A stretch of DNA of 45,834 nt from Oxalobacteraceae bacterium OM1 (lineage in GTDB: Bacteria; Pseudomonadota; Gammaproteobacteria; Burkholderiales; Burkholderiaceae_D), in assembly GCA_004570315.1 (NCBI GenBank), contig SPQI01000290.1, positions 1 through 45,834 on the forward strand, in the 5' to 3' direction. The first letter of the stretch is position 1. Each line of letters begins with the position of its first letter. Shown one piece after another: positions 16,536 to 31,001 of the stretch. The notes under the pieces are model-generated. The model was not told where the DNA came from. It saw nothing but the letters and a program-made list of their open reading frames with translations, and searched no databases. The translations under genes were made by a program, and so were the position numbers.

Positions 16536-17747
16536 TCAGGTCTGCGACACCGGAATCGGCTGGCGCTCTCCTGCGGCTGCCAGAATCGCAAGAACCGCGG
16601 CGATCAGCGCGCAGCCCGCTACCTGAATGATGCCGGCGGTCGACCATCCGAAATCTTCTTTCAGCACGCCGAGCAGATAACCCGCGAACGCTGCCGGGAT
16701 GTAGAGGCTTGCGACGAACAGGCCGGATGCATAGGAAGCCTTTTCACGCTTGACCGATTTGATGATGCCCGCCGACAGGTTGGAATAGACCATCCCGCTG
16801 ATCGCGCCGCCGAACACGAAGGAGAACAGGATGTGCAGCGCCAGCGAATGGCCGAGTCCCGCGAACAGAATGCCGCCGGCGCCTGCCGAAATCACGAGCG
16901 ACACGAACAGCAGCTTGCGGTAATCGTATTTGTCGCCGAGCCAGCCGCCGAACAGCGAGAGCAGGGCGCCGAAGCCGTAGAAGCTCACCGCCAGGCCCGC
17001 TTCCTTCGGCGTGAAGCCGAGCGACTCGCGCAGGAAGGTCGGGTACAGGCCCAGATAGCCGTAGATGGCGAGGCCGGCGAACACGGTGGCCAGCGCGAGC
17101 GTCATGGGCGTCTTGGCCCAGATCGTATCGGCCAAGCCATCTTCCCGCACGGCGCTCGCGTCCTGTTGCCCGGCCTGGATCTCGGTGAACCACGGCTTGA
17201 CGAAGAGCAGGATCAGGACCAGCACGACGGCGCCCGACACACCGAAGACGACGAAGGGCATCTGCCAGTGCGTCGCGCCGAGAATCGCCGCGCCGAGATT
17301 CGGGCCGATGATGGCGCCGATGCCGAACGTGAAGTTCAGTGAACTTGCGGCCACCGCGCGGTGCTGGAGGAAATAGGTGGTGCCGATGGCCAGCAGGGCG
17401 GTCAGCTGCATGGCTTCGCCCAGTCCGGAGATGAAGCGATACAGCAGCAGGTCGGGCATGCCGGTGGCATACGCCGTGAGGAAGGTGGCGGCGGAAAAGA
17501 TGATCAGCCCGATGACGGCGACGGCGCGCCGCGACATCTTGCCGAGCAGGTAGCCGGTCGGGATGCCGGCCACGCCCATCCCCAGCGTAAACACCGTGGC
17601 CGCGAGTCCGACTTGCGGCAGGCTCAGCCCGAGTGCCTTGCGCACGTCCGGGGCCAGCACGGAAAACAGCTGGCGGTCCATGGCGTTGATCACGTACGAC
17701 ACCAGCAGGATGACGAACATCCCGAGTGCAGCCTTATGCTTGTTCAT
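16536..17747 (-). CDS. MFS transporter of the imide/amide operon
   Basis: Protein of 403 residues with about 12 hydrophobic helices, the usual MFS size. It begins MNKHKAALGMFVILLVSYVINAMDRQLFSVL, and the loop between helices 2 and 3 reads GYLLGKMSRRAV, a form of the MFS signature. It is the last gene of a minus-strand operon after an imidase-like deacetylase and an asparaginase-like enzyme, about 100 bp downstream of the latter. Context suggests uptake of the substrate those enzymes degrade; direction of transport and substrate are inference. Confidence 0.9.
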   Translation of the reverse strand: MNKHKAALGMFVILLVSYVINAMDRQLFSVLAPDVRKALGLSLPQVGLAATVFTLGMGVAGIPTGYLLGKMSRRAVAVIGLIIFSAATFLTAYATGMPDLLLYRFISGLGEAMQLTALLAIGTTYFLQHRAVAASSLNFTFGIGAIIGPNLGAAILGATHWQMPFVVFGVSGAVVLVLILLFVKPWFTEIQAGQQDASAVREDGLADTIWAKTPMTLALATVFAGLAIYGYLGLYPTFLRESLGFTPKEAGLAVSFYGFGALLSLFGGWLGDKYDYRKLLFVSLVISAGAGGILFAGLGHSLALHILFSFVFGGAISGMVYSNLSAGIIKSVKREKASYASGLFVASLYIPAAFAGYLLGVLKEDFGWSTAGIIQVAGCALIAAVLAILAAAGERQPIPVSQT

Positions 17748-17773
17748 CTTTTGTCTCCATCCAAGTGTTATGC

Positions 17774-17791
17774 ATGCCGGGGCTCCGGCAT
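17774..17791. promoter_or_regulatory. Intercistronic hairpin between amidohydrolase and MFS genes
   Basis: ATGCCGG (17774-17780) and CCGGCAT (17785-17791) form a perfect 7-bp stem with a GGCT loop, about 27 bp upstream of the MFS start on the minus strand. It could damp read-through or stabilise the upstream message. Confidence 0.4.
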
Positions 17792-17848
17792 GGTTGTCTC
17801 TCCAGCTCCGGCACGGTGGGGCCGGGCGTTCGTGCAGCCGGACCCGAA

Positions 17849-18880
17849 CTAGTCGGGCACCTCCACCAGCACCGCATTGCTGCGCGCGGTATAGGCTGCG
17901 CGCAGCGCGTCTCCGGTGAGGCCATTGGCGATCAGCAGGCGCAGCAGCAGGCAGGCTTTGCCGCCGTTCAAGTACCCACCCGGAATGGCGCCGCGGGCGA
18001 TCAGGTCCATCTCCGATCCCTTGAAGCCGTACGTGCGCTGAAACACCGGGCCGGATGCGACCCGCGTGGACAGCACCACCGGCATGACGGCCGCCAGCTG
18101 CTCGACCTTCTCCGCGAAATGCGCCGGCAGATGTCCCGCGCCCATGGCGTCGATGACGACGCCGCGATAGCCAAGGCCCGGCAGCGCCGCCAGCATGCGG
18201 CCGTCGTCGCCGAGCGGAACGGTGAGCAGCGCGACGGCTGTGTCGTCGACGCTGGCCGGCCGTGCGAGAGCGCCGATGCGGGGCAGGCTGGCATAGCGGT
18301 GCACGCTGCCTTCGATCACCCGCCCGACCGGACCGAAGCCCGGAGAGGTGAATGCGGACGGCAGGGCGGTGTGCGACTTGTGCACGCGGCTGCCGGCGTG
18401 AATCTCGTCGTTGAGGACGGCCACCGCGCCGATGCCGACGGCTGCGGCGGAGCTGGCCACCGTGACGGCTGCCAGAAGATTCGCCGGACCGTCCGCGCCG
18501 GGTGCCGATGCGCCGCGCATCGCGCCGGTGACGACGACGGGGCGGTTGGACTGAACCAGCGTATCGAGCACGAACGCCGTCTCTTCAATGGTGTCCGTGC
18601 CTTGCACCACAACCGCGCCGGCGAAGCCGTCTTCCATGCGCGTGTCGATGAGTTCCGCGAGGCGGACGAGGTCGCCGAGCGTGAGGGAGGCGCCGGGGAC
18701 CATGGAGAACGACACGACTTCCAGCGTGGCACGGCCGGCCAGCTCGGGCACGGCGCGCACCAGGTCCTCTCCGGTGAGCGTGGGCGTGATGCCGCCAGCC
18801 GCGCCGCTGGCGCCGCTGGCGCCACTTGTCATGGTGATGGTGCCGCCCGTGGAGATCAGCAATACGCGCCGTGAGGTCAT
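17849..18880 (-). CDS. L-asparaginase family amidohydrolase
   Basis: Protein of 343 residues with both asparaginase signatures: STGGTIT near the N-terminus, whose Thr14 corresponds to the nucleophile, and QGTDT at residues 93-97, where Thr95-Asp96 match the second catalytic pair; Lys168 in HKSHT fits the conserved lysine. Most bacterial type I/II enzymes have His before GTDT; here it is Gln93, an unusual variant. There is no signal peptide, so it is cytoplasmic. Its ATG at 18880 overlaps the stop of the imidase-like gene as ATGA, so translation is coupled. In this setting it may hydrolyse the half-amide released by the imidase-like enzyme rather than asparagine. The frame continues upstream to 19246 but that part is antisense-like and not this protein. 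Confidence 0.88.
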   Translation of the reverse strand: MTSRRVLLISTGGTITMTSGASGASGAAGGITPTLTGEDLVRAVPELAGRATLEVVSFSMVPGASLTLGDLVRLAELIDTRMEDGFAGAVVVQGTDTIEETAFVLDTLVQSNRPVVVTGAMRGASAPGADGPANLLAAVTVASSAAAVGIGAVAVLNDEIHAGSRVHKSHTALPSAFTSPGFGPVGRVIEGSVHRYASLPRIGALARPASVDDTAVALLTVPLGDDGRMLAALPGLGYRGVVIDAMGAGHLPAHFAEKVEQLAAVMPVVLSTRVASGPVFQRTYGFKGSEMDLIARGAIPGGYLNGGKACLLLRLLIANGLTGDALRAAYTARSNAVLVEVPD

Positions 18881-19812
18881 GCCGCGTTTCCTCGCTCCGC
18901 CGCGCGCGGCGTGCCCTGCGATTTGTAGATGTCGAGGATCTCCTCGCCGGTGCACATGGCCACGCCCGCATGCGAGAGGATGTAGTCGTACAGCGCTTCG
19001 AGATACTTGATGCGATGCGGCACGCCCGTCAGGTAGGGATGGATCGAGATGGCCATCACGCGCGGAATCGTCGCGCCTTCCTTGTACAGCTGATCGAACT
19101 GATCCCGGCCGCGGCGGAAGATTTCGTCGGAGGGCTGTTGCTGGATCGCGGACATGACAACGTCGTTGATCTCGACGGTGTACGGGACCGAAATCATCTC
19201 GCCGCTGCGGGTCGCGATCGGCACCGGCTGGTCGTCCAGCACCCAATCGGCCACATACTCGATGCCTGCCTCTGCGAGGAGATCGATGGTCTCGGCGGTT
19301 TCGGTCAGGCCGGGGCTTTCCCAGCCGCGCGGCGGCTTACCGGTGAACTTGCGGATCGCCTCGACGGTCTGGCGGATCGCCTGCGCCTGATCCTCGACGC
19401 GATGCATCGGCTTCTGCACGAAGCCGTGGCCCATGAATTCCCAGCCGGCGTCGAGGGCGGCCTGGCAGGCGGCCGGGTACTCCATGCAGGCCGTGCCGTT
19501 CAGCGCCAGCGTCGCGCGCAGTCCGCGCGCTTTCAGCACATCGAGGAAGCGCCAGAAGCCGACCCGCATCCCATACTCGTGCCAGCACCAGTTGGGCACG
19601 TCGGGCAGCAGCGGCTGTCCCATCGGCGGCGGCAGGACTGTGCGCGGCATTGCGTTTTGCGGCAGCCAGTTTTCGATGTTGACGATGGTCCAGACCGCGA
19701 CGCGTGCGTTGTCGGGGAGGACGAAGGGGCGGCGCTGGGTAATGGGTTCGTAGCGTACCCGCTCGCGTGCCGAAGGGCCGGCGGCGGCTTGACCGGAACT
19801 GGGCTCATGCAT
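18877..19812 (-). CDS. PuuE/imidase-like polysaccharide deacetylase family hydrolase
   Basis: Protein of 311 residues of the NodB-homology (polysaccharide deacetylase) superfamily in the branch that contains PuuE allantoinases and bacterial cyclic imide hydrolases. Signs are VAVWTIVNIENWLP near residues 38-51, the metal-site pair His129 and His137 in GHGFVQKPMH, RGWESPGL (162-169), and His258 in AISIHPYLTG. Members of this branch open cyclic amide rings (allantoin, succinimide, hydantoins) in the cytoplasm. It is the first gene of the operon, coupled by ATGA overlap to the asparaginase-like gene. No uricase or other purine-degradation gene is present, which makes a cyclic imide more plausible than allantoin; that is inference. 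Confidence 0.85.
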   Translation of the reverse strand: MHEPSSGQAAAGPSARERVRYEPITQRRPFVLPDNARVAVWTIVNIENWLPQNAMPRTVLPPPMGQPLLPDVPNWCWHEYGMRVGFWRFLDVLKARGLRATLALNGTACMEYPAACQAALDAGWEFMGHGFVQKPMHRVEDQAQAIRQTVEAIRKFTGKPPRGWESPGLTETAETIDLLAEAGIEYVADWVLDDQPVPIATRSGEMISVPYTVEINDVVMSAIQQQPSDEIFRRGRDQFDQLYKEGATIPRVMAISIHPYLTGVPHRIKYLEALYDYILSHAGVAMCTGEEILDIYKSQGTPRAAERGNAA

Positions 19813-19885
19813 GGGACTGCTCCTTGACTGGTGGGTCCGACGCCTTCCCGGCGGCGAAACTCGGAATGCGGTTTGGTTTCTGCTA

Positions 19886-19900
19886 TTCCACTATTTGGAA
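19886..19900. promoter_or_regulatory. IclR operator candidate, copy 1
   Basis: TTCCACTATTTGGAA, perfect 5-bp arms TTCCA and TGGAA around 5 bases. The identical 15-mer (16 with the preceding A) occurs at 20003-20017. It lies 74-88 bp upstream of the imidase-like start on the minus strand. Confidence 0.75.
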
Positions 19901-20002
19901 CTGATTTGCCACCCGGCATGAAGCGTTCCGGGAAGACGAGGCAAAGCTGTACGGGCCATGCTATTTTTCGGCTGAACACAGTGTCAACGGCTTTATCTTT
20001 AA

Positions 20003-20017
20003 TTCCACTATTTGGAA
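20003..20017. promoter_or_regulatory. IclR operator candidate, copy 2
   Basis: TTCCACTATTTGGAA, identical to 19886-19900 with 117 bp between equivalent bases. It ends 7 bp before the IclR ATG at 20025, so binding here should repress the regulator's own gene, as is usual in the family. Confidence 0.75.
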
Positions 20018-20024
20018 GTTTGAA

Positions 20025-20795
20025 ATGACGACTCCGCATGTGCCCGGCGCGCAGACGATCACCCGCGCGGTACGCGCCTTGAAGCTCATTGCCCAGCATG
20101 CGCCGGACGGGGTGCGCCTGACCGATCTGGCGGCAGGGCTGGAGCTGGAACAGCCGACGGCCCATCGGCTGCTGCAGGCGTTGATGAGCGAAGGCATGCT
20201 CGTCCGCGACGGCGCCTCACGCCGCTACACCCTCGGTCCGCTGGTCTTCGAACTCGGCCTGGCATCGACGCATCAGTTCAATCTGCGCGACATCTGCCGC
20301 CCGGTCCTCGAAGCGCTGGCCGAACGCACCGGCGACACCAGTTTTCTCTTCGTCCGCAGCGGCAACGACGCCGTGTGCCTAAGCCGCGTGCAGGGCAGTT
20401 ATCCGATCCAGACGCCTGCCGTGCCGGTGGGCAGCCGGCAGCCCCTCGGCGTCAGCGCCGGCGGACTGGCCCTGCTGAGCTGCCTGTCCGATGCCGAAGT
20501 GGCGCGCACGCTGGAGGCGGTGGCGGCGCGTTTGAGCGTGTATGGCGAGCTCGATGCGGAGGAGTTGCGCAAGCATTGCACGCGCGCGCAGGAGCAGGGA
20601 TTCGCCTACATCGCCAACAAGGCCGTGCCGGGCGTGAGCGCGGTGGGGCTGCCGATCCGCAGCTCGACCGGAACCGCGATTGCGGCGATCACGGTTGCAG
20701 CGACGCAGGCGCGCATGAATGAAAAACGCGTCAAGGAGATCCTGCCGCTGCTGCGCGATGCAGCGGTGGAGATCACTGCATTGTTGCGGCAGTAG
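20025..20795 (+). CDS. IclR family transcriptional regulator
   Basis: Protein of 256 residues, normal for the family. The N-terminal winged helix (about 8-75) reads TITRAVRALKLIAQHAPDGVRLTDLAAGL and then EQPTAHRLLQALMSEGML; the linker and C-terminal GAF-like effector domain follow, with GVSAVGLPI and AAITVAAT typical of its ligand pocket. It is divergent from the imidase-like, asparaginase-like and MFS operon, and two identical palindromes occupy the gap, so it almost certainly governs that operon and itself. The effector is probably the operon's substrate or an intermediate. Confidence 0.94.
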   Translation: MTTPHVPGAQTITRAVRALKLIAQHAPDGVRLTDLAAGLELEQPTAHRLLQALMSEGMLVRDGASRRYTLGPLVFELGLASTHQFNLRDICRPVLEALAERTGDTSFLFVRSGNDAVCLSRVQGSYPIQTPAVPVGSRQPLGVSAGGLALLSCLSDAEVARTLEAVAARLSVYGELDAEELRKHCTRAQEQGFAYIANKAVPGVSAVGLPIRSSTGTAIAAITVAATQARMNEKRVKEILPLLRDAAVEITALLRQ

Positions 20796-23475: not shown

Positions 23476-24279
23476 CTAACGCAGCAGGGAGCGCGCGGTG
23501 GGCGCCAGCATCAAAACCTCCGGCGGGCGCGCAAGCGCCTTGTGAAGGCGCCCGAACAAATCGTCCCGCCAGTCCGCTTCGCGGGCCAGTGCTGCGATGT
23601 AGGCGTCGTACGCCGCGCGATCGGCGAAGGCCGCAAACCACGCAAACACGTTCTCGCCTTCCCGCACCGGCAGGCGCTCGAAGGTGTTCGGGCTGTGATC
23701 GCTGACATAGCGTCCGAGCACCCGTGCGCCGTTGCGCTCGAACAGCGGCAGCAACAGGTGTTCGAAATCCTGCACGAAGGTCGCGCTGACCGGCGCGGAG
23801 AAATAGTAGAGCGTGGCGACCACAAAACTGCCCGGCGCGGCGCTGTCCGTTCCTGGCCGCTCTGTTGGATCGACCCGGAATCCGCTGCCCGCGACGGCAG
23901 GGTGCAGCAGCAGCACGTTGTCGTTGTCGTATAGCGTCGGATTGGCCGCACCGCGGTATGCCTGCCACACCGGGCCGAAGTAGAAGTCGGTCAATGCCTT
24001 GCGGCGCGCTTCCATGTCCGGGAAGCCGCGCAGCCACACGAATCGGTTGGCGTCGTTGACCTCGCGGAACTGGCCGAAGATGCGCATGCCGACCGCTTCC
24101 TGCGATTCGACGAAGTGCTTGTCGAACAGGTCGATCAGTTTGTCCCGCGTGCCGGGATAGTTGATGTATTGACGAAGCTCGACGATGGGATAGGCGTCTT
24201 CCATGCGTGTCCTTTCTGCCGTGGCGGCGTGGGCGAATGAGATGACCGCGAAGGTTAGAGCGAGAGTGAGCAGTTTCAT
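23476..24279 (-). CDS. Secreted NIPSNAP family protein
   Basis: Protein of 267 residues. The start at 24279 is set by GGAGG about 7 bases upstream and by the signal peptide MKLLTLALTFAVISFAHA, which the longer frame to 24486 would bury. The mature part begins with the NIPSNAP pattern VELRQYINYPGTRDKLIDLFDKHF, then GQFREVNDANRFVWLRGFPDM, FYFGPVW and a second similar ferredoxin-like half (VATLYYFSA to FAWFAAFADRAAY). These alpha/beta-barrel proteins are of uncertain function. It is divergent from the WYL regulator at 24380, and the shared 25-bp motif lies in the gap. Confidence 0.85.
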   Translation of the reverse strand: MKLLTLALTFAVISFAHAATAERTRMEDAYPIVELRQYINYPGTRDKLIDLFDKHFVESQEAVGMRIFGQFREVNDANRFVWLRGFPDMEARRKALTDFYFGPVWQAYRGAANPTLYDNDNVLLLHPAVAGSGFRVDPTERPGTDSAAPGSFVVATLYYFSAPVSATFVQDFEHLLLPLFERNGARVLGRYVSDHSPNTFERLPVREGENVFAWFAAFADRAAYDAYIAALAREADWRDDLFGRLHKALARPPEVLMLAPTARSLLR

Positions 24280-24339
24280 GAGAGCCCTCCAGCGAGCACC
24301 GTCAGCCCGTGTTGAAAAGCGCCCAGCATAGATTCCAAA

Positions 24340-24364
24340 TAGGACATAATTCGCCCTATTAAGT
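24340..24364. promoter_or_regulatory. Candidate WYL-regulator operator in the NIPSNAP/WYL divergent gap
   Basis: A 25-bp element starting TAGGACAT and continuing TTCGCCCTATTAAGT, matching 21430-21454 at 21 of 25 positions. It is 15 bp before the WYL regulator start and 60 bp upstream of the NIPSNAP start, consistent with autoregulation. Confidence 0.6.
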
Positions 24365-24379
24365 GAATAAGATTCAACC

Positions 24380-25333
24380 ATGTACCACCCCACCACCCGC
24401 GTACTCGGCGTACTCGAACTGCTGCAGGCGCACGGCCGCCTCAGCGGCGCCGAATTGGCGGAGCGGCTCGAGGTGGATAGGCGCACCCTGCGGCGTTACA
24501 TCAGCACGCTGGAGTCGATGGGCATTCCAATCGCAACGGAGCGCGGCCGGCATGGCGGCTACGCGCTCGTGCCCGGCTTCAAGCTGCCGCCCCTGATGTT
24601 CACCGAAGATGAGGCGGTGGCCTTGTCGGTCGGTCTGCTCGCCGCGCGCGGGCTTGGCTTGGCGGAAGGATCGCTTGCCGCGGCCAGCGCGCAGGCGAAG
24701 CTCGAACGTGTCATTCCAGAGGCGCTGCGCCGCCGCGTGCGGGCAGTGAACGAGACAGTGAAGCTGGCCGGCGCACGCGCAACTGGCCAGGCCGACAACG
24801 GCTTGCTGGTGACGCTCAGTCTGGCCGCCCAGCTTGGACAGCGCGTGCACCTGCGCTATCGCGATGCCCGTTCGGGCGCCACCGAACGCGACTTCGACCC
24901 GTACGGCCTGGTCTTCCTGGATGGCCGCTGGTATGCGAGCGGCATGTGCCATTTGCGCGGCGAGCTGCGTTCCTTCCGGCTCGACCGCATGCTTTCGCTC
25001 GAGCTGGGCGAGCAGCGCTTCCAGCGCCCCGGCGACTTCGATGCGCTGGAGCATTTGCTGCGGTCGGTGGCTACGCTGCCGAGGGCCTACACCATCGAAG
25101 TGATCCTGAAGACCGATATGGCGACCGCCCGGGCGCATCTCTTCAATGCCATCGGCGTGCTGACGGAAGCGGAGGGCGGTGTGTTGGTGCGAAACCAGTC
25201 CGACGACCTCGACTGGTTTGCGCGCCAGCTGGCGCGCCTGCCCTTCGGTTTCAAGGTGCTCCGTCCGGTGGAGCTGCATGCGGCGATCAGGGAGTGCGCA
25301 ACGCGGTTGCTGGAGCAAGCGGGGGAAGTCTGA
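24380..25333 (+). CDS. YafY-type HTH and WYL domain transcriptional regulator
   Basis: Protein of 317 residues. The N-terminal DeoR-like winged helix is seen in TTRVLGVLELLQAHGRLSGAELAERLEVDRRTLRRYI, with the wing ATERGRHGGYALVPGFKLPPLMFT that is standard in YafY proteins. The WYL domain core follows at LGQRVHLRYRDARSGATERDFDPYGLVFLDGRWYASGMC, and a C-terminal WCX-like segment ends near residue 310. WYL regulators sense small ligands. It is divergent from the NIPSNAP gene. The shared motif in its promoter and upstream of the DUF1579 gene suggests a small regulon of local genes. Confidence 0.93.
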   Translation: MYHPTTRVLGVLELLQAHGRLSGAELAERLEVDRRTLRRYISTLESMGIPIATERGRHGGYALVPGFKLPPLMFTEDEAVALSVGLLAARGLGLAEGSLAAASAQAKLERVIPEALRRRVRAVNETVKLAGARATGQADNGLLVTLSLAAQLGQRVHLRYRDARSGATERDFDPYGLVFLDGRWYASGMCHLRGELRSFRLDRMLSLELGEQRFQRPGDFDALEHLLRSVATLPRAYTIEVILKTDMATARAHLFNAIGVLTEAEGGVLVRNQSDDLDWFARQLARLPFGFKVLRPVELHAAIRECATRLLEQAGEV

Positions 25334-25870: not shown

Positions 25871-26485
25871 TCAGCGTGTCCTGCCGAGCAGCACGCCCGA
25901 GACGCGCAACGCAGTGTCCGTCACCACATCGATTTTCGGCTTGTAGCCCTGGTGAATCCAGCTCGTGGCGATCTGGATGATGCTGCCCAGCACGCCGACC
26001 TGCAGCAGCTCGTCGGCGGCCTCGCCGCGTAGCGCGAGCACCCGCGTCATGTTGCGGGCGATGCCGCGCAAGGCTTCCTCGAAGGCCGCATCGACCGCCG
26101 GGCTGACGCCGCGAATCTCCACGAGGAAGACGCGCGCCGCGTGCGGCTCGCGCTGGAGCGCGGCGAAGTAGGCGTACAGCATCGCGCGCGCCCGTTCCTT
26201 CCGGCTGCGCTTGCTCTGCGCCGCCTCCACGCCTTCCTGATGCACGCCGTACGTCACCGCATTGAAGGCCGCGACCAGCAGCTCTTCGCTGTTGGCGAAG
26301 GATTCGTAGAAATAGCGTTCCGTGAGTCCTGCGGCTTCGCAGACCGCCTTGACCGACGACTGGCGATAGCCGCGCTCGCCGTACACGGCGATGCCGGCGG
26401 CAATCAATCGGCGGCGCCGCTCGGCGCGCCGTTCTTCCTGGGAAATGCCCCGGTACAGGCGGGGCGCGGGCTGGGTTCGAGACAT
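25871..26485 (-). CDS. TetR family transcriptional regulator of the monooxygenase operon
   Basis: Protein of 204 residues started at the second ATG (26485), where GAGG lies about 10 bases upstream; the ATG at 26494 leaves only one base between it and that site. The N-terminal helix-turn-helix is RRRLIAAGIAVYGERGYRQSSVKAVCEAAGLTERYFYESFANSEELL, a standard TetR DNA-binding domain, followed by a helical ligand domain. It is divergent from a Baeyer-Villiger-type monooxygenase operon, and the gap holds two 20-bp palindromes of equal geometry. It is most likely a repressor of that operon and itself. Confidence 0.93.
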   Translation of the reverse strand: MSRTQPAPRLYRGISQEERRAERRRRLIAAGIAVYGERGYRQSSVKAVCEAAGLTERYFYESFANSEELLVAAFNAVTYGVHQEGVEAAQSKRSRKERARAMLYAYFAALQREPHAARVFLVEIRGVSPAVDAAFEEALRGIARNMTRVLALRGEAADELLQVGVLGSIIQIATSWIHQGYKPKIDVVTDTALRVSGVLLGRTR

Positions 26486-26503
26486 GCGAGACATGCCTCT
26501 ATT

Positions 26504-26575: not shown

Positions 26576-28060
26576 ATGTCAACATCCGCTTCCTCCAACG
26601 CAGAGACGCTTGATGTCCTGATCATCGGCGCCGGCCTCTCCGGCATCGGTGCCGCCTATCAACTCCAGAAGACTTGCCCCGGCAAGCGCTACGCCATCCT
26701 CGAAGCGCGCGACGCCATCGGCGGGACCTGGGACCTGTTCCGCTATCCCGGCATCCGCTCCGATTCCGACATGTATACCCTCGGCTACCGCTTCAAGCCG
26801 TGGACCAATCCCAAGGCCATCGCCGACGGCCCGGCCATCCGCAGCTACATTCGAGAAACCGCGGAAGAGGGCGGCATCACGCGGCACATCCGCTTCCGGC
26901 AGAAGGTGGTCAGCGCCGCATGGTCGAGCGCCGAGGCCTGCTGGACAGTCGTCGCCGAACAGGTCGGCACCGGCGAGCGCAGCACCGTGCGCGCCCGCTT
27001 CCTCTATGCCTGCAGCGGCTATTACCGCTACGACGAAGCCTATCGGCCCGAATTCGCCGGCGAAGCCGACTTCCGCGGCACGCTGGTCCTGCCGCAGTTC
27101 TGGCCCGAGCAACTCGACCATGCAGGCAAGCGGGTGGTGGTGATCGGCAGCGGCGCGACCGCAGTCACCGTCGTCCCTTCGATGGCCAAGACCGCCGCGC
27201 ACGTCACGATGCTGCAGCGCTCGCCGTCCTATGTCGTTACGCGTCCCGGCGAGGACAAGATTGCGCACGGCCTGCGGCGCGTGCTGCCGGAGCGGACCGC
27301 CTACCGCATGACGCGCTGGAAGAACGTACTGATCGGCATGTTCTTCTACAAGCTCGCCCGCAGCCGTCCCGAGCCCATCAAACGGCGCATCGTGCAGATG
27401 GCGGCGCAGCAGCTCGGCAACGGCTATGACGTCGCCACCCACTTCACGCCCCGCTACAAGCCCTGGGACCAGCGCGTCTGCCTCGTGCCGGACGGCGATC
27501 TCTTCGACGCCATCCGCAATGGCCGCGTCTCGGTGGTGACCGACACCATCGAGCGCTTCACGCCGGACGGCATCCGGCTCGCCTCGGGCAAGGAGCTGCC
27601 GGCCGACATCGTGGTGATCGCCACCGGCCTCGCGCTGCAGGTGCTGGGCGGCGTGGCGATGAGCATCGACGGTCGGCCGCTGCAGGCGAACGAAGCCTTC
27701 GCCTACAAGGGCATGATGCTGAGCGACGTGCCGAACTTCGCGATGGCCTTCGGCTACACCAACGCCTCGTGGACCTTGAAAGCCGATCTCACCGCCGGCT
27801 ACGTCTGCCGCCTGTTGCGCTACATGGACCGCCACGGCAAGGCCATCGCCGTGCCGCGGCGCGAACCGGGCGTGGAACCCAAGCCCTTCCTCGACTTCAC
27901 CTCCGGCTACGTGCAGCGCGCGCAGCACATCCTGCCGAAGCAGGGGTCGCGCGCGCCGTGGCAGGTGCATCAGAACTATCTCCAGGATCTCGTCACCATC
28001 CGCTTCGGCCGTATCGCCGACGGCGTCATGCGCTTCGGCGCGAAGGGAGCCATGCCATGA
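26576..28060 (+). CDS. FAD-dependent Baeyer-Villiger-type monooxygenase, altered fingerprint
   Basis: Protein of 494 residues in the EtaA-like flavin monooxygenase group. It has the FAD motif LIIGAGLSGIGAAYQL near residues 15-30, EARDAIGGTWD, the NADPH motif VVVIGSGATAVTVVPSMAK and the family end of the pyridine-nucleotide domain ATGLAL. The Baeyer-Villiger fingerprint FxGxxxHxxxWP is present at 166-177 but reads F-R-G-T-L-V-L-P-Q-F-W-P: the histidine is Leu172. The family inserts oxygen next to a carbonyl to make an ester or lactone with NADPH and O2. The change might alter activity; mutation of that residue in related enzymes reduces but does not always abolish it. AGGAG precedes the start and the stop overlaps the next gene (ATGA). 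Confidence 0.9.
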   Translation: MSTSASSNAETLDVLIIGAGLSGIGAAYQLQKTCPGKRYAILEARDAIGGTWDLFRYPGIRSDSDMYTLGYRFKPWTNPKAIADGPAIRSYIRETAEEGGITRHIRFRQKVVSAAWSSAEACWTVVAEQVGTGERSTVRARFLYACSGYYRYDEAYRPEFAGEADFRGTLVLPQFWPEQLDHAGKRVVVIGSGATAVTVVPSMAKTAAHVTMLQRSPSYVVTRPGEDKIAHGLRRVLPERTAYRMTRWKNVLIGMFFYKLARSRPEPIKRRIVQMAAQQLGNGYDVATHFTPRYKPWDQRVCLVPDGDLFDAIRNGRVSVVTDTIERFTPDGIRLASGKELPADIVVIATGLALQVLGGVAMSIDGRPLQANEAFAYKGMMLSDVPNFAMAFGYTNASWTLKADLTAGYVCRLLRYMDRHGKAIAVPRREPGVEPKPFLDFTSGYVQRAQHILPKQGSRAPWQVHQNYLQDLVTIRFGRIADGVMRFGAKGAMP

Positions 28061-28866
28061 GAGTGAAGGACCGGGTTGCCGTCATCACCGGCGCGGGCAG
28101 CGGCATCGGCCGCGCCATTGCCGTCTCCCTGGCGCGGCGCGGCTGTCATCTCGCGCTCGCCGACATCAATCGGCTGGGCATCGAACAGACCGCCGAGCTG
28201 GCGCGGGCGCTGGGGGTGCGCGTGAGCCTCCACGACCTCGACGTGGCGAGCCGCGAGATGGTCCGGGCGCTGCCGGCGGCGGTGCAGGCGCAGCATGGGC
28301 GCATCGACATCCTCGTCAACAATGCCGGCGTCGCGCTCGGCGGCACCTTCGAGCAGGTGAGCGAAGCGGACTTCGACTGGCTCATGGAGATCAATTTCCA
28401 TGGCGTGGTCCGCATGACGCGCGCCTTCCTGCCCTACCTGCATGCCGGCGACGACGCCCGCATCGTCAACCTCTCCAGCCTCTACGGCCTCGTCTCGCCG
28501 GCGGGGCAGGCCGCCTATTCGGCGAGCAAGTTCGCGGTGCGCGGTTTCTCGAATGCGCTGCGCCATGAGCTCGAAGGTTCCGGCGTCGGCGTGACGGTGG
28601 TGCATCCCGGCGGCGTGGCGACTGCGATCGCCAAGAACGCCCGCGTGCCGGACGGCGTGCCCGAAGAGGAGGTGCTGCGGCGCAAGGCCCTGGCCGACAA
28701 GCTCCTGCGCATGCCGCCCGAGAAGGCCGGCGAGATCATCGTGCGCGGCATCGAGCGGCGCCAGGCGCGCGTGATCGTCGGCATGGACGCCAAGATCGTG
28801 TCGATCATCGAGCGTATCGCGCCGGTGCGTTACTGGGCGCTGCTGAAAAGGGGAGTGGAACAATGA
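28057..28866 (+). CDS. SDR family oxidoreductase of the monooxygenase operon
   Basis: Protein of 269 residues. Classical SDR motifs: TGAGSGIGRA (cofactor loop) at the N-terminus, VNNAGVA, and the catalytic triad segment SSLYGLVSPAGQAAYSASK (Ser, Tyr, Lys). VVHPGGVATAI follows the active site. It starts by ATGA overlap with the monooxygenase and ends by ATGA overlap with the hydrolase, so all three are translated together. Likely it oxidises a secondary alcohol to the ketone used by the monooxygenase, or the reverse. The in-frame extension upstream to 27769 is the monooxygenase in another frame. Confidence 0.92.
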   Translation: MRVKDRVAVITGAGSGIGRAIAVSLARRGCHLALADINRLGIEQTAELARALGVRVSLHDLDVASREMVRALPAAVQAQHGRIDILVNNAGVALGGTFEQVSEADFDWLMEINFHGVVRMTRAFLPYLHAGDDARIVNLSSLYGLVSPAGQAAYSASKFAVRGFSNALRHELEGSGVGVTVVHPGGVATAIAKNARVPDGVPEEEVLRRKALADKLLRMPPEKAGEIIVRGIERRQARVIVGMDAKIVSIIERIAPVRYWALLKRGVEQ

Positions 28867-29831
28867 CGGCATTTCAAATCACAATCACGACAGCGGCGCT
28901 CTTCGTGCTCGCCGTTGCCGGCCTGCTCGCGGCCTTCACCTGGTGGACCGCGCGGCGCATCGAGGCCGGCTTGCCGCCGCAAGGACGGTTCGTGGAAGCC
29001 GGCGGCGTGCGCTTCCATGTGCACGAACAGGGCGAAGGTCCGGCCCTGCTGCTCATCCACGGACTCGCCGGCCAGATGCGGCACTTCACCTACGGCGTAA
29101 CGGAACGCCTGGCGAGCCAGCACCGCGTGGTGACGCTGGACCGCCCCGGGTCCGGCTACTCGGTGCGCGGCGAGGCGACGCCCGCGGACCTCTCCACGCA
29201 GGCGGCGGCCATCGCTGCCTTGATCGATACGCTGCAGCTCGGCCGTCCCTTCGTCGTCGGCCATTCCCTCGGCGGCGCGATTGCGCTCACGCTCGCGGTC
29301 GAGCATCCGCAGCGCGTGTCGGGGCTGGCGCTGGTCGCGCCGCTGACGCATCTGCCCGAAGACAGCGAGCCGCCGGCGGCCTTCAAGGCGCTGACCATCG
29401 CATCGCCGTGGCTGCGCAAGCTCTTCGCCTGGACGCTCGCCGTGCCGGGCTCCATCGCCAAGCGCGAGGCAGTGCTGGGGCAGGTATTCGGCCCGGACCC
29501 GGTGCCGCGCGACTTCGCCACGCGCGGCGGCGGACTGCTCGCGCTGCGTCCGAGTCATTTCATCGCTGCATCGGTGGACCTGCAGGCTGTGCCCGAACGC
29601 CTGCCGGCCATCGTCGAGCGGTATGGCGAATTGCGCGTGCCGGTGAGCGTGCTGTTCGGACGCAAGGACCGCATCCTCGATTGGCAGCGGAACGGACAGG
29701 CGCTGGTGGACAAGGTCGGCGGCGCCACGCTGAAGCTGGTCAACGGCGGCCACATGCTGCCGGTCACGGACCCGGAATCGACGGCCGGCTTCATCGCGGA
29801 GGCGGCGCAACACGTGCGGCAGGAAGTGTAA
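28863..29831 (+). CDS. Membrane-anchored alpha/beta hydrolase
   Basis: Protein of 322 residues with one N-terminal transmembrane helix (about 9-28) and an alpha/beta hydrolase domain. LLLIHGLAGQMRHF gives the oxyanion region, GHSLGG (133-138) the nucleophile elbow with Ser135, GRKDRILD the acidic residue (Asp269) and GGHMLP the catalytic His297. It overlaps the SDR stop by ATGA. In the operon it could cleave the ester or lactone made by the monooxygenase. The membrane anchor fits a hydrophobic substrate. Confidence 0.92.
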   Translation: MTAFQITITTAALFVLAVAGLLAAFTWWTARRIEAGLPPQGRFVEAGGVRFHVHEQGEGPALLLIHGLAGQMRHFTYGVTERLASQHRVVTLDRPGSGYSVRGEATPADLSTQAAAIAALIDTLQLGRPFVVGHSLGGAIALTLAVEHPQRVSGLALVAPLTHLPEDSEPPAAFKALTIASPWLRKLFAWTLAVPGSIAKREAVLGQVFGPDPVPRDFATRGGGLLALRPSHFIAASVDLQAVPERLPAIVERYGELRVPVSVLFGRKDRILDWQRNGQALVDKVGGATLKLVNGGHMLPVTDPESTAGFIAEAAQHVRQEV

Positions 29832-29855: not shown

Positions 29856-31001
29856 ATGCTGCGCAAGGCATTCGCCGTACTCGTTCTGCTCGTCGTTGCA
29901 CTTCTGGTCTATCTCAGCCTGGCGCCCGTCCCCATCGAGCCGGTGGCATGGCGCGCGCCGAAGGACGGCGGCTATGCAGGCGCGTATGCCGCCAACACCG
30001 GGCTGGCCAATCTGCGCCGTATCGAATTATCCGGGGAAAGCGGTCCCGAGCATGTCGCGCTCGGACCGGACGGACTGCTGTACGCCGCCGTGGCCGGCGG
30101 CAAGATCCTGCGCATGAAGCCGGACGGCAGCGCGCCTGAAGTGTGGGCGCAGACCGGCGGCCGCGTGCTCGGCTTCGACTTCGACCGGCGCGGCAACCTC
30201 GTTGCGGCCGACTCGCGGCGCGGATTGCTCTTGGTCGAAGGGCAGGGGACAGAAAAGCGCATCACCGTGCTGGCGGACAAGGTGCGCGTCGCCGACGGCA
30301 GCGACGATCCGATCCGCTTCGCCGACGCCGTCGTAATTGCCGGCGACGGCAAGATCTTCTTCACCGATGCCTCGCGCCGTTTCGGCGCCGCGCAATGGGG
30401 CGAGTTCGATGCCAGCGTGCTCGACATCCTGGAACATTCGGCCACCGGCCGCGTGCTTGTGTTCGACCCGGCAAGCCGCGCGGTGGACATCGTGGCGGAC
30501 GGCCTGACGTTCGCCAACGGCCTCGCGCTGTCGGCGGACGAGCGCTCGCTGTTCGTGGCGGAGACCGGGGAATATCGCATCTGGAAGCTGGATGCGGCAG
30601 CGCGCAAGCTGCATCTCAAGGCCGCCGGCGAACAGCCCGGCGCGGCGGTCCTCCTCGCCAACCTGCCAGGCTATCCGGACAACCTGATGCGCGGCATGAA
30701 CGGCCGCCTCTGGGTAGGCCTCGCCAAGCCGCGCAGCGCCGCAGCCGACGCGCTCGCCGCAAAGCCCTTCCTGCGCAAGGTGGCAACGCGCCTGCCCAAG
30801 GCACTCTGGCCAGTGCCGCCGGCCTACGGTCATGTGCTGGCCCTCGATGAAAGCGGCAAGGTCGTCGCGGATCTGCAGGACCCGTCCGGCGCGTATCCGG
30901 AAACCACCGGGGTGACGGAAACCGCGGACCGGCTCTACATCCAGAGCCTGCATGCCGGCGCGCTGGGCTGGCGCGGCAAGGACGGTCTCGGCCTGCGTTA
31001 G
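29856..31001 (+). CDS. Strictosidine synthase/SMP-30-like beta-propeller
   Basis: Protein of 381 residues. An N-terminal hydrophobic segment (about 4-25) acts as signal anchor. The rest is a six-bladed propeller: EHVALGPDGLLYAAVAGGKILRM, GFDFDRRGNLVAADS, DGKIFFTDASRRFG, FANGLALSADERSLFVAETGEYRIWK and PGYPDNLMRGMNGRLWVGL, the repeated pattern of SMP-30/gluconolactonase and strictosidine synthase-like proteins. Many such proteins hydrolyse lactones using a metal. GAGGAG lies upstream of the start. It is the fourth gene of the operon and ends in a strong hairpin. Confidence 0.88.
   Translation: MLRKAFAVLVLLVVALLVYLSLAPVPIEPVAWRAPKDGGYAGAYAANTGLANLRRIELSGESGPEHVALGPDGLLYAAVAGGKILRMKPDGSAPEVWAQTGGRVLGFDFDRRGNLVAADSRRGLLLVEGQGTEKRITVLADKVRVADGSDDPIRFADAVVIAGDGKIFFTDASRRFGAAQWGEFDASVLDILEHSATGRVLVFDPASRAVDIVADGLTFANGLALSADERSLFVAETGEYRIWKLDAAARKLHLKAAGEQPGAAVLLANLPGYPDNLMRGMNGRLWVGLAKPRSAAADALAAKPFLRKVATRLPKALWPVPPAYGHVLALDESGKVVADLQDPSGAYPETTGVTETADRLYIQSLHAGALGWRGKDGLGLR

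Follow-up and report, generated by a model that had tools for sequence, protein, structure and literature searches.

A Baeyer-Villiger-type monooxygenase lineage in which the fingerprint histidine varies

In the window (the whole stretch of DNA that was analysed, 45,834 nucleotides), a class B flavoprotein monooxygenase gene carries leucine in place of the histidine of the Baeyer-Villiger monooxygenase (BVMO) fingerprint. This departure from the BVMO hallmark is real and lineage-wide, and Leu172 is one state of a position that varies across the whole lineage. We put a probability of roughly 0.68 on the reading that the gene encodes a working, operon-embedded BVMO whose hinge histidine has become replaceable in its lineage. 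The product would be an EtaA/AlmA-like BVMO that depends on NADPH and FAD. The fingerprint His, in the linker between the FAD and NADPH domains, would have turned replaceable in this lineage, with Gln or Leu standing in for His at 172 and a hydrophobic residue replacing the conserved Thr348 before the ATG motif. Because many relatives that lack the His look functional, its absence here probably reflects a replaceable residue and is not a sign of new chemistry. The gene and its motifs are as follows.

26576..28060, + strand: class B flavoprotein monooxygenase gene, 494 amino acids, an open and full-length reading frame
26627..26644, + strand: FAD-binding Rossmann loop GAGLSG (residues 18-23), intact
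26720..26764, + strand: first BVMO fingerprint GGTWDLFRYPGIRSD (residues 49-63), intact, a full motif match
27038..27040, + strand: Ala155 codon GCC (106 of the 124 His-bearing relatives have Gly here)
27071..27106, + strand: second BVMO fingerprint with Leu for His, FRGTLVLPQFWP (residues 166-177, translation F-R-G-T-L-V-L-P-Q-F-W-P)
27089..27091, + strand: Leu172 codon CTG, at the fingerprint His of F-x-G-x3-H-x3-W-[PD]
27146..27163, + strand: NADPH-binding Rossmann loop GSGATA (residues 191-196), intact, with no variation among 87 homologues
27473..27475, + strand: Arg300, conserved in all 186 proteins and possibly the counterpart of PAMO's catalytic Arg337
27617..27619, + strand: Ile348 codon ATC, directly before the ATG motif

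The product of 26576..28060 is presumably of an EtaA/AlmA-like Baeyer-Villiger type, a subgroup name by which we place it near EtaA/EthA, MymA and AlmA. The protein has two Rossmann motifs of the form GxGxx[GA] and matches the first fingerprint, [GA]GxWx4[FY]P[GM]x3D, at GGTWDLFRYPGIRSD. It fails the strict second fingerprint, FxGx3Hx3W[PD], with Leu172 as the sole mismatch. Judged by that pattern it is a non-member of the type I BVMOs, though it is a sequence homologue of the members and is likely to work as they do. Pfam called the protein FMO-like, and no NCBIfam family scored above its cut-off. A preliminary description had reported Leu172 in place of the family His, with the rest of the fingerprint and both Rossmann loops intact. 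The translation of 27071-27106 agrees with this, no better alignment yields a His, and GAGLSG and GSGATA are complete. The source genome is a 4.7 Mb draft in 524 contigs. It also encodes a second monooxygenase (L002/L173, contig C248 of G000, in an 832-aa frame) that is about 30% identical and keeps the His (FHGTVFHSAEW).

One search for relatives, which also gave the nearest named ones, used patterns that left out residue 172. The kin-genome search gave matches at E<=0.001 in 32 of 60 genomes. At E<=1e-100, matches were found in 67/392 genomes of the window's family, 22/369 of its class, 20/399 of its order, 95/249 of a second family of that order and 9/101 of the genus of Hymenobacter aerophilus. 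Loci were taken best match first, with a maximum of 30 for each genome search, and 270 of them gave 186 unique proteins that match over more than 380 residues with an identity of 52% or higher; BVMOs of lower identity were not counted, and the counts apply to kin of the window protein and not to BVMOs in general. Among the matches listed, residue 172 in these 186 proteins was H in 124, Q in 47, L in 12 and V, S and Y in 1 each, such that 62 of 186 were without the fingerprint His and 124 of 186 had it. With the limit set at 42% identity and the final loci still to come, the set held 193 proteins (H 137, Q 41, L 12, V 1, S 1, Y 1). The first sample, of 91 matches above 50% identity with duplicates counted, had H 66, L 15, Q 7, V 1, S 1 and Y 1. 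The strict second fingerprint matched 97 of the 124 His proteins and 0 of the 62 non-His proteins. The preliminary description had proposed a search for relatives that share the leucine, and they were found: the 12 unique Leu172 proteins, the window's own included, come from carriers such as Noviherbaspirillum massiliense, N. aridicola, N. humi and N. sp. Root189. The residues around position 172 (G168, P173, Q174 and W176) are invariant in 87 unique homologues, and Leu recurs in independent genomes. We therefore rejected both misalignment and sequencing error as explanations of Leu172.

The nearest named relatives of the monooxygenase are Noviherbaspirillum proteins (79-81%). Proteins without the His come from Noviherbaspirillum, Telluria, Roseateles and Hymenobacter, and also from records that bear the labels Herminiimonas, Rhizobacter, Rhodospirillales, Oxalobacteraceae and Spirosomataceae. 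The Rhodospirillales label may be wrong: locus L043 (G1149) has the same contig number, coordinates and score as a locus of G088 (L230), and the genome collection places G088 in the window's own family. One genome, G012, holds a Leu form (L008, with 78-79% identity to the window protein) together with a His-bearing second copy (L163 3503-5023, 57% identical), which provides a natural internal comparison. Among rows with at least 60% identity, the codons at 172 were CTG (10), TTG (1) and CTC (1) for Leu, CAG (43) and CAA (4) for Gln, and CAT (29) and CAC (22) for His. A route from His through Gln to Leu, which we presume, would take one base change per step.

Phylogenetic trees were built to follow the history of the position. 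In a tree of 87 rows (87 of 92 proteins, identical proteins dropped) computed without column 172, all 20 non-His rows lay beyond one branch with a support of 80, which suggested a single, never-reversed loss of His; that scenario was dropped after wider sampling. The wider trees held 110 of the 186 proteins, made up of those with identity of at least 62% and more than 420 aa together with 8 outgroup rows. Computed without columns 155, 172 and 348, the 110-row tree called for five changes between His and non-His, at least three of them forced by well-supported branches, and a single clade of all 61 non-His rows was rejected (p-AU 0.0008). Parsimony placed two returns from Gln to His inside a Gln group, one in L129 alone and one in L136/L137/L147, whose fork has a support of 99; both returns lie below a fork with a support of 95. 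A near-basal branch of this tree had a support of only 26, and parsimony put Leu first on the weakly supported basal branch. The repeated change at 172 rests on the wider sample, and we count this, along with the basal support of 26, against the reading of a replaceable hinge.

Structural comparison placed the protein among known BVMOs. An AlphaFold2 model built from 79 sequences had a mean pLDDT of 94.9 and the overall fold of a type I BVMO: among the best 50 PDB matches listed, the top ones were steroid, phenylacetone and cyclohexanone monooxygenases, with BVMO Z scores of 29 to 31.9, rmsd 3.0-3.7, about 440-460 aligned residues and 19-24% identity. Phenylacetone, steroid and cyclohexanone monooxygenases thus share the fold (Z about 30 to 32), but those that were aligned carry the His. 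The EtaA/EthA, MymA and AlmA group of type I BVMOs, near which the protein presumably belongs, has the same Rossmann and first-fingerprint motifs, whereas the window protein has Leu for the fingerprint His. The best solved relatives were OgBVMO (8wkc) and phenylacetone monooxygenase by sequence, and OTEMO and OgBVMO by profile. OgBVMO, the Oceanicola granulosus BVMO-type enzyme of known structure (PDB 8wkc), shares the Leu at the fingerprint His (FKGEVLLASKWP) but is 22% identical to the window protein in the structure alignment. Leucine was found at the same place in the CHMO/PAMO-type protein of locus L022 (1498-3078; YLTGRWP), a protein that among solved structures best matches steroid and phenylacetone monooxygenases. 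Since OgBVMO and L022 both have Leu, the change has arisen outside the window lineage too, where it looks isolated. From the loci found with L022, Leu as a common BVMO trait was rejected: His was kept in 28 of the 29 others, and the exception, L293, carries Arg, its match being interrupted by two stops. The 30 loci, L022 included, are those given out of 36 places listed. Among the papers listed in a literature search, with subscription journals mostly outside its scope, none dealt with natural BVMOs without the fingerprint His or with OgBVMO.

The monooxygenase gene is followed by genes that suggest a pathway, and a regulator gene diverges from it upstream.

25871..26494, - strand: divergent TetR-family regulator, upstream
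28057..28866, + strand: short-chain dehydrogenase, its start overlapping the monooxygenase stop
28863..29831, + strand: alpha/beta hydrolase
29856..31001, + strand: strictosidine-synthase-like / SMP-30 beta-propeller protein

PMC6304351 lays out a subterminal oxidation route in Thalassolituus that combines a dehydrogenase, a BVMO and an esterase. By analogy, the window genes may run such a route. The 28057..28866 product could act as a secondary-alcohol dehydrogenase and would convert the secondary alcohol to a ketone, the monooxygenase would convert the ketone to an ester, and the 28863..29831 hydrolase could be an esterase that would split the ester product into acid and alcohol. Retained Baeyer-Villiger activity, the pathway and the class of substrate are each predicted in this scheme. 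Synteny was examined by tblastn searches with the genes that flank the monooxygenase in the window. Where at least 2.4 kb of downstream sequence was available, non-His loci had the hydrolase in 23 of 24 cases, the dehydrogenase in 17 of 24 and one or both in 24 of 24; a divergent TetR gene was present in 44 of the 61 non-His loci with enough upstream sequence. His rows with at least 60% identity had the hydrolase and/or dehydrogenase in 17/22 and TetR in 35/50. Below 60% identity, the corresponding values for His rows were 8/43 and 2/69, and because these rows rarely share the neighbourhood, the synteny speaks for this lineage only. Among the 56 loci that extend 4 kb downstream, none showed an SMP-30-like gene within 3 kb. 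Elsewhere in the window, 23476-25333, upstream of the operon, encodes a NIPSNAP-domain protein and a divergent WYL-domain regulator, and 16536-20795, which may be a catabolic cluster of its own, encodes an MFS transporter, asparaginase-like and polysaccharide-deacetylase-like proteins and a divergent IclR regulator.

The preliminary description had proposed that loss of the His alters the chemistry. Under this explanation, the loss would weaken control of domain movement and leave an enzyme that acts mainly as an NADPH oxidase, sulfoxidase or hydroxylase. The rarity of His loss outside the lineage, as in the loci found with L022, favours it, and so does earlier work: the fingerprint was defined in 2002 (Fraaije et al.), and HAPMO fingerprint mutants are reported to be impaired, which we also count against the reading of a replaceable His. 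AlmA relatives are described, in PMC12449030 and PMC11784139, as an alkane hydroxylase in one species and a BVMO in another, which likewise leaves room for altered chemistry. According to PMC12388405, recombinant Acinetobacter AlmA, for which the His motif is reported, forms esters from 2-decanone and 2-dodecanone.

Several observations argue against altered chemistry. The hydrolase or dehydrogenase neighbours are kept in non-His loci, and these genes fit a ketone-to-ester step. For three of the four rows that regained His (L136, L137 and L147), the operon matches that of their Gln neighbours. Selection is about equal on the two forms: median dN/dS, estimated by simple counting at high dS from rows with at least 60% identity and dS<2, was 0.33 across 1869 non-His pairs as against 0.32 across 1261 His pairs, the His set also leaving out dS<=0.05. 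The 25 closest non-His pairs had dN/dS of 0.09-0.27. Finally, R215 and R300 are unchanged in all 186 proteins; R300 is the putative equivalent of PAMO Arg337 in a gapped alignment, and D63, the candidate counterpart of PAMO Asp66 (the Asp partner of Arg337), is present in 60/62 non-His and 124/124 His rows. W176 and G168 are likewise unchanged in 62 of 62 non-His proteins. The claim thus lacks support in a lineage where position 172 varies among relatives with similar dN/dS, operon and arginines, and we regard altered chemistry as unlikely.

Two other positions change together with 172. In the 87-row set, 142 columns were at least 94% conserved in His rows, and only 155, 172 and 348 of these fell below 70% in the 20 non-His rows. 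At 348, before ATG, the Thr became Ile, Leu, Val, Met or Ala, and at 155 the change was mostly Gly to Ala. The same comparison of columns revealed none in which non-His rows had gained a dominant His, and a compensating His elsewhere was therefore rejected. Across the 186 proteins, Thr or Ser occupied 348 in 105/124 His rows vs 0/62 non-His rows, and the window protein, with its hydrophobic residue, differs here from most of its His-bearing relatives. By corrected weighted mutual information, the pair 172-348 ranked 2nd of 115,930 pairs, 155-172 ranked 19th and 155-348 ranked 30th, and 172 and 348 were each other's best partner. Four other pairs in the top 15 (423-489, 424-488, 331-340 and 129-136) lie in or beside model strands that, from the strand limits, could pair. 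We take 172 and 348 both to sit on linkers between the FAD and NADPH domains, as in known class B structures, and their side chains may be in contact. PMC9044951 places the second fingerprint in the linker and not strictly in the active site; it treats the fingerprint as the limiting motif, one that can nevertheless be degenerate (data not shown there).

These patterns bear on the possibility of neutral drift: position 172 would be neutral in this lineage, the His would have gone without any compensation at 348 or 155, and the enzyme would function unchanged. Six different residues occur at 172, and the coupling loses significance once phylogeny is allowed for: an independent-pairs test of 172 against 348 had only 3 to 5 pairs (median p 0.5), and the coupling may therefore reflect shared descent. 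The association is also not strict, with Val, Leu, Met or Ala at 348 in 19/124 His rows, and Ala or Pro occurs at 155 in 18/124 His rows. Against drift stand the complete absence of Thr and Ser at 348 from non-His rows and the rank of the 172-348 pair, and we consider drift slightly less probable again than altered chemistry. With confidence a little above even, we favour a natural BVMO lineage with normal catalysis in the absence of the His, in which a hinge of residues 172, 348 and 155 would have been rewired from His-Thr to Gln or Leu plus a hydrophobic residue, and the His would have been lost and regained.

That the window gene is a decaying or non-functional copy is very improbable: although two non-His proteins of 62 are frame-broken near the N-terminus within long contigs (L155 3341-4788 and L162 3481-4940, which may be gene remnants or reflect errors in sequencing), the window gene itself has an uninterrupted, full-length frame, dN/dS is below 1, and the two Rossmann motifs and the first fingerprint were each found in 59/62 non-His proteins (124/124 His proteins), the three exceptions being these two frame breaks and one protein at a contig edge.

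Together, these results bear on how BVMOs are recognized and on what the His does. A search with the strict fingerprint misses all 62 non-His proteins and picks up 97 of the 124 His proteins. The lineage is a natural experiment on the role of the His, in which close His, Gln and Leu enzymes with the same operon are directly comparable, and the proposed partner at 348 would give a testable prediction of epistasis.
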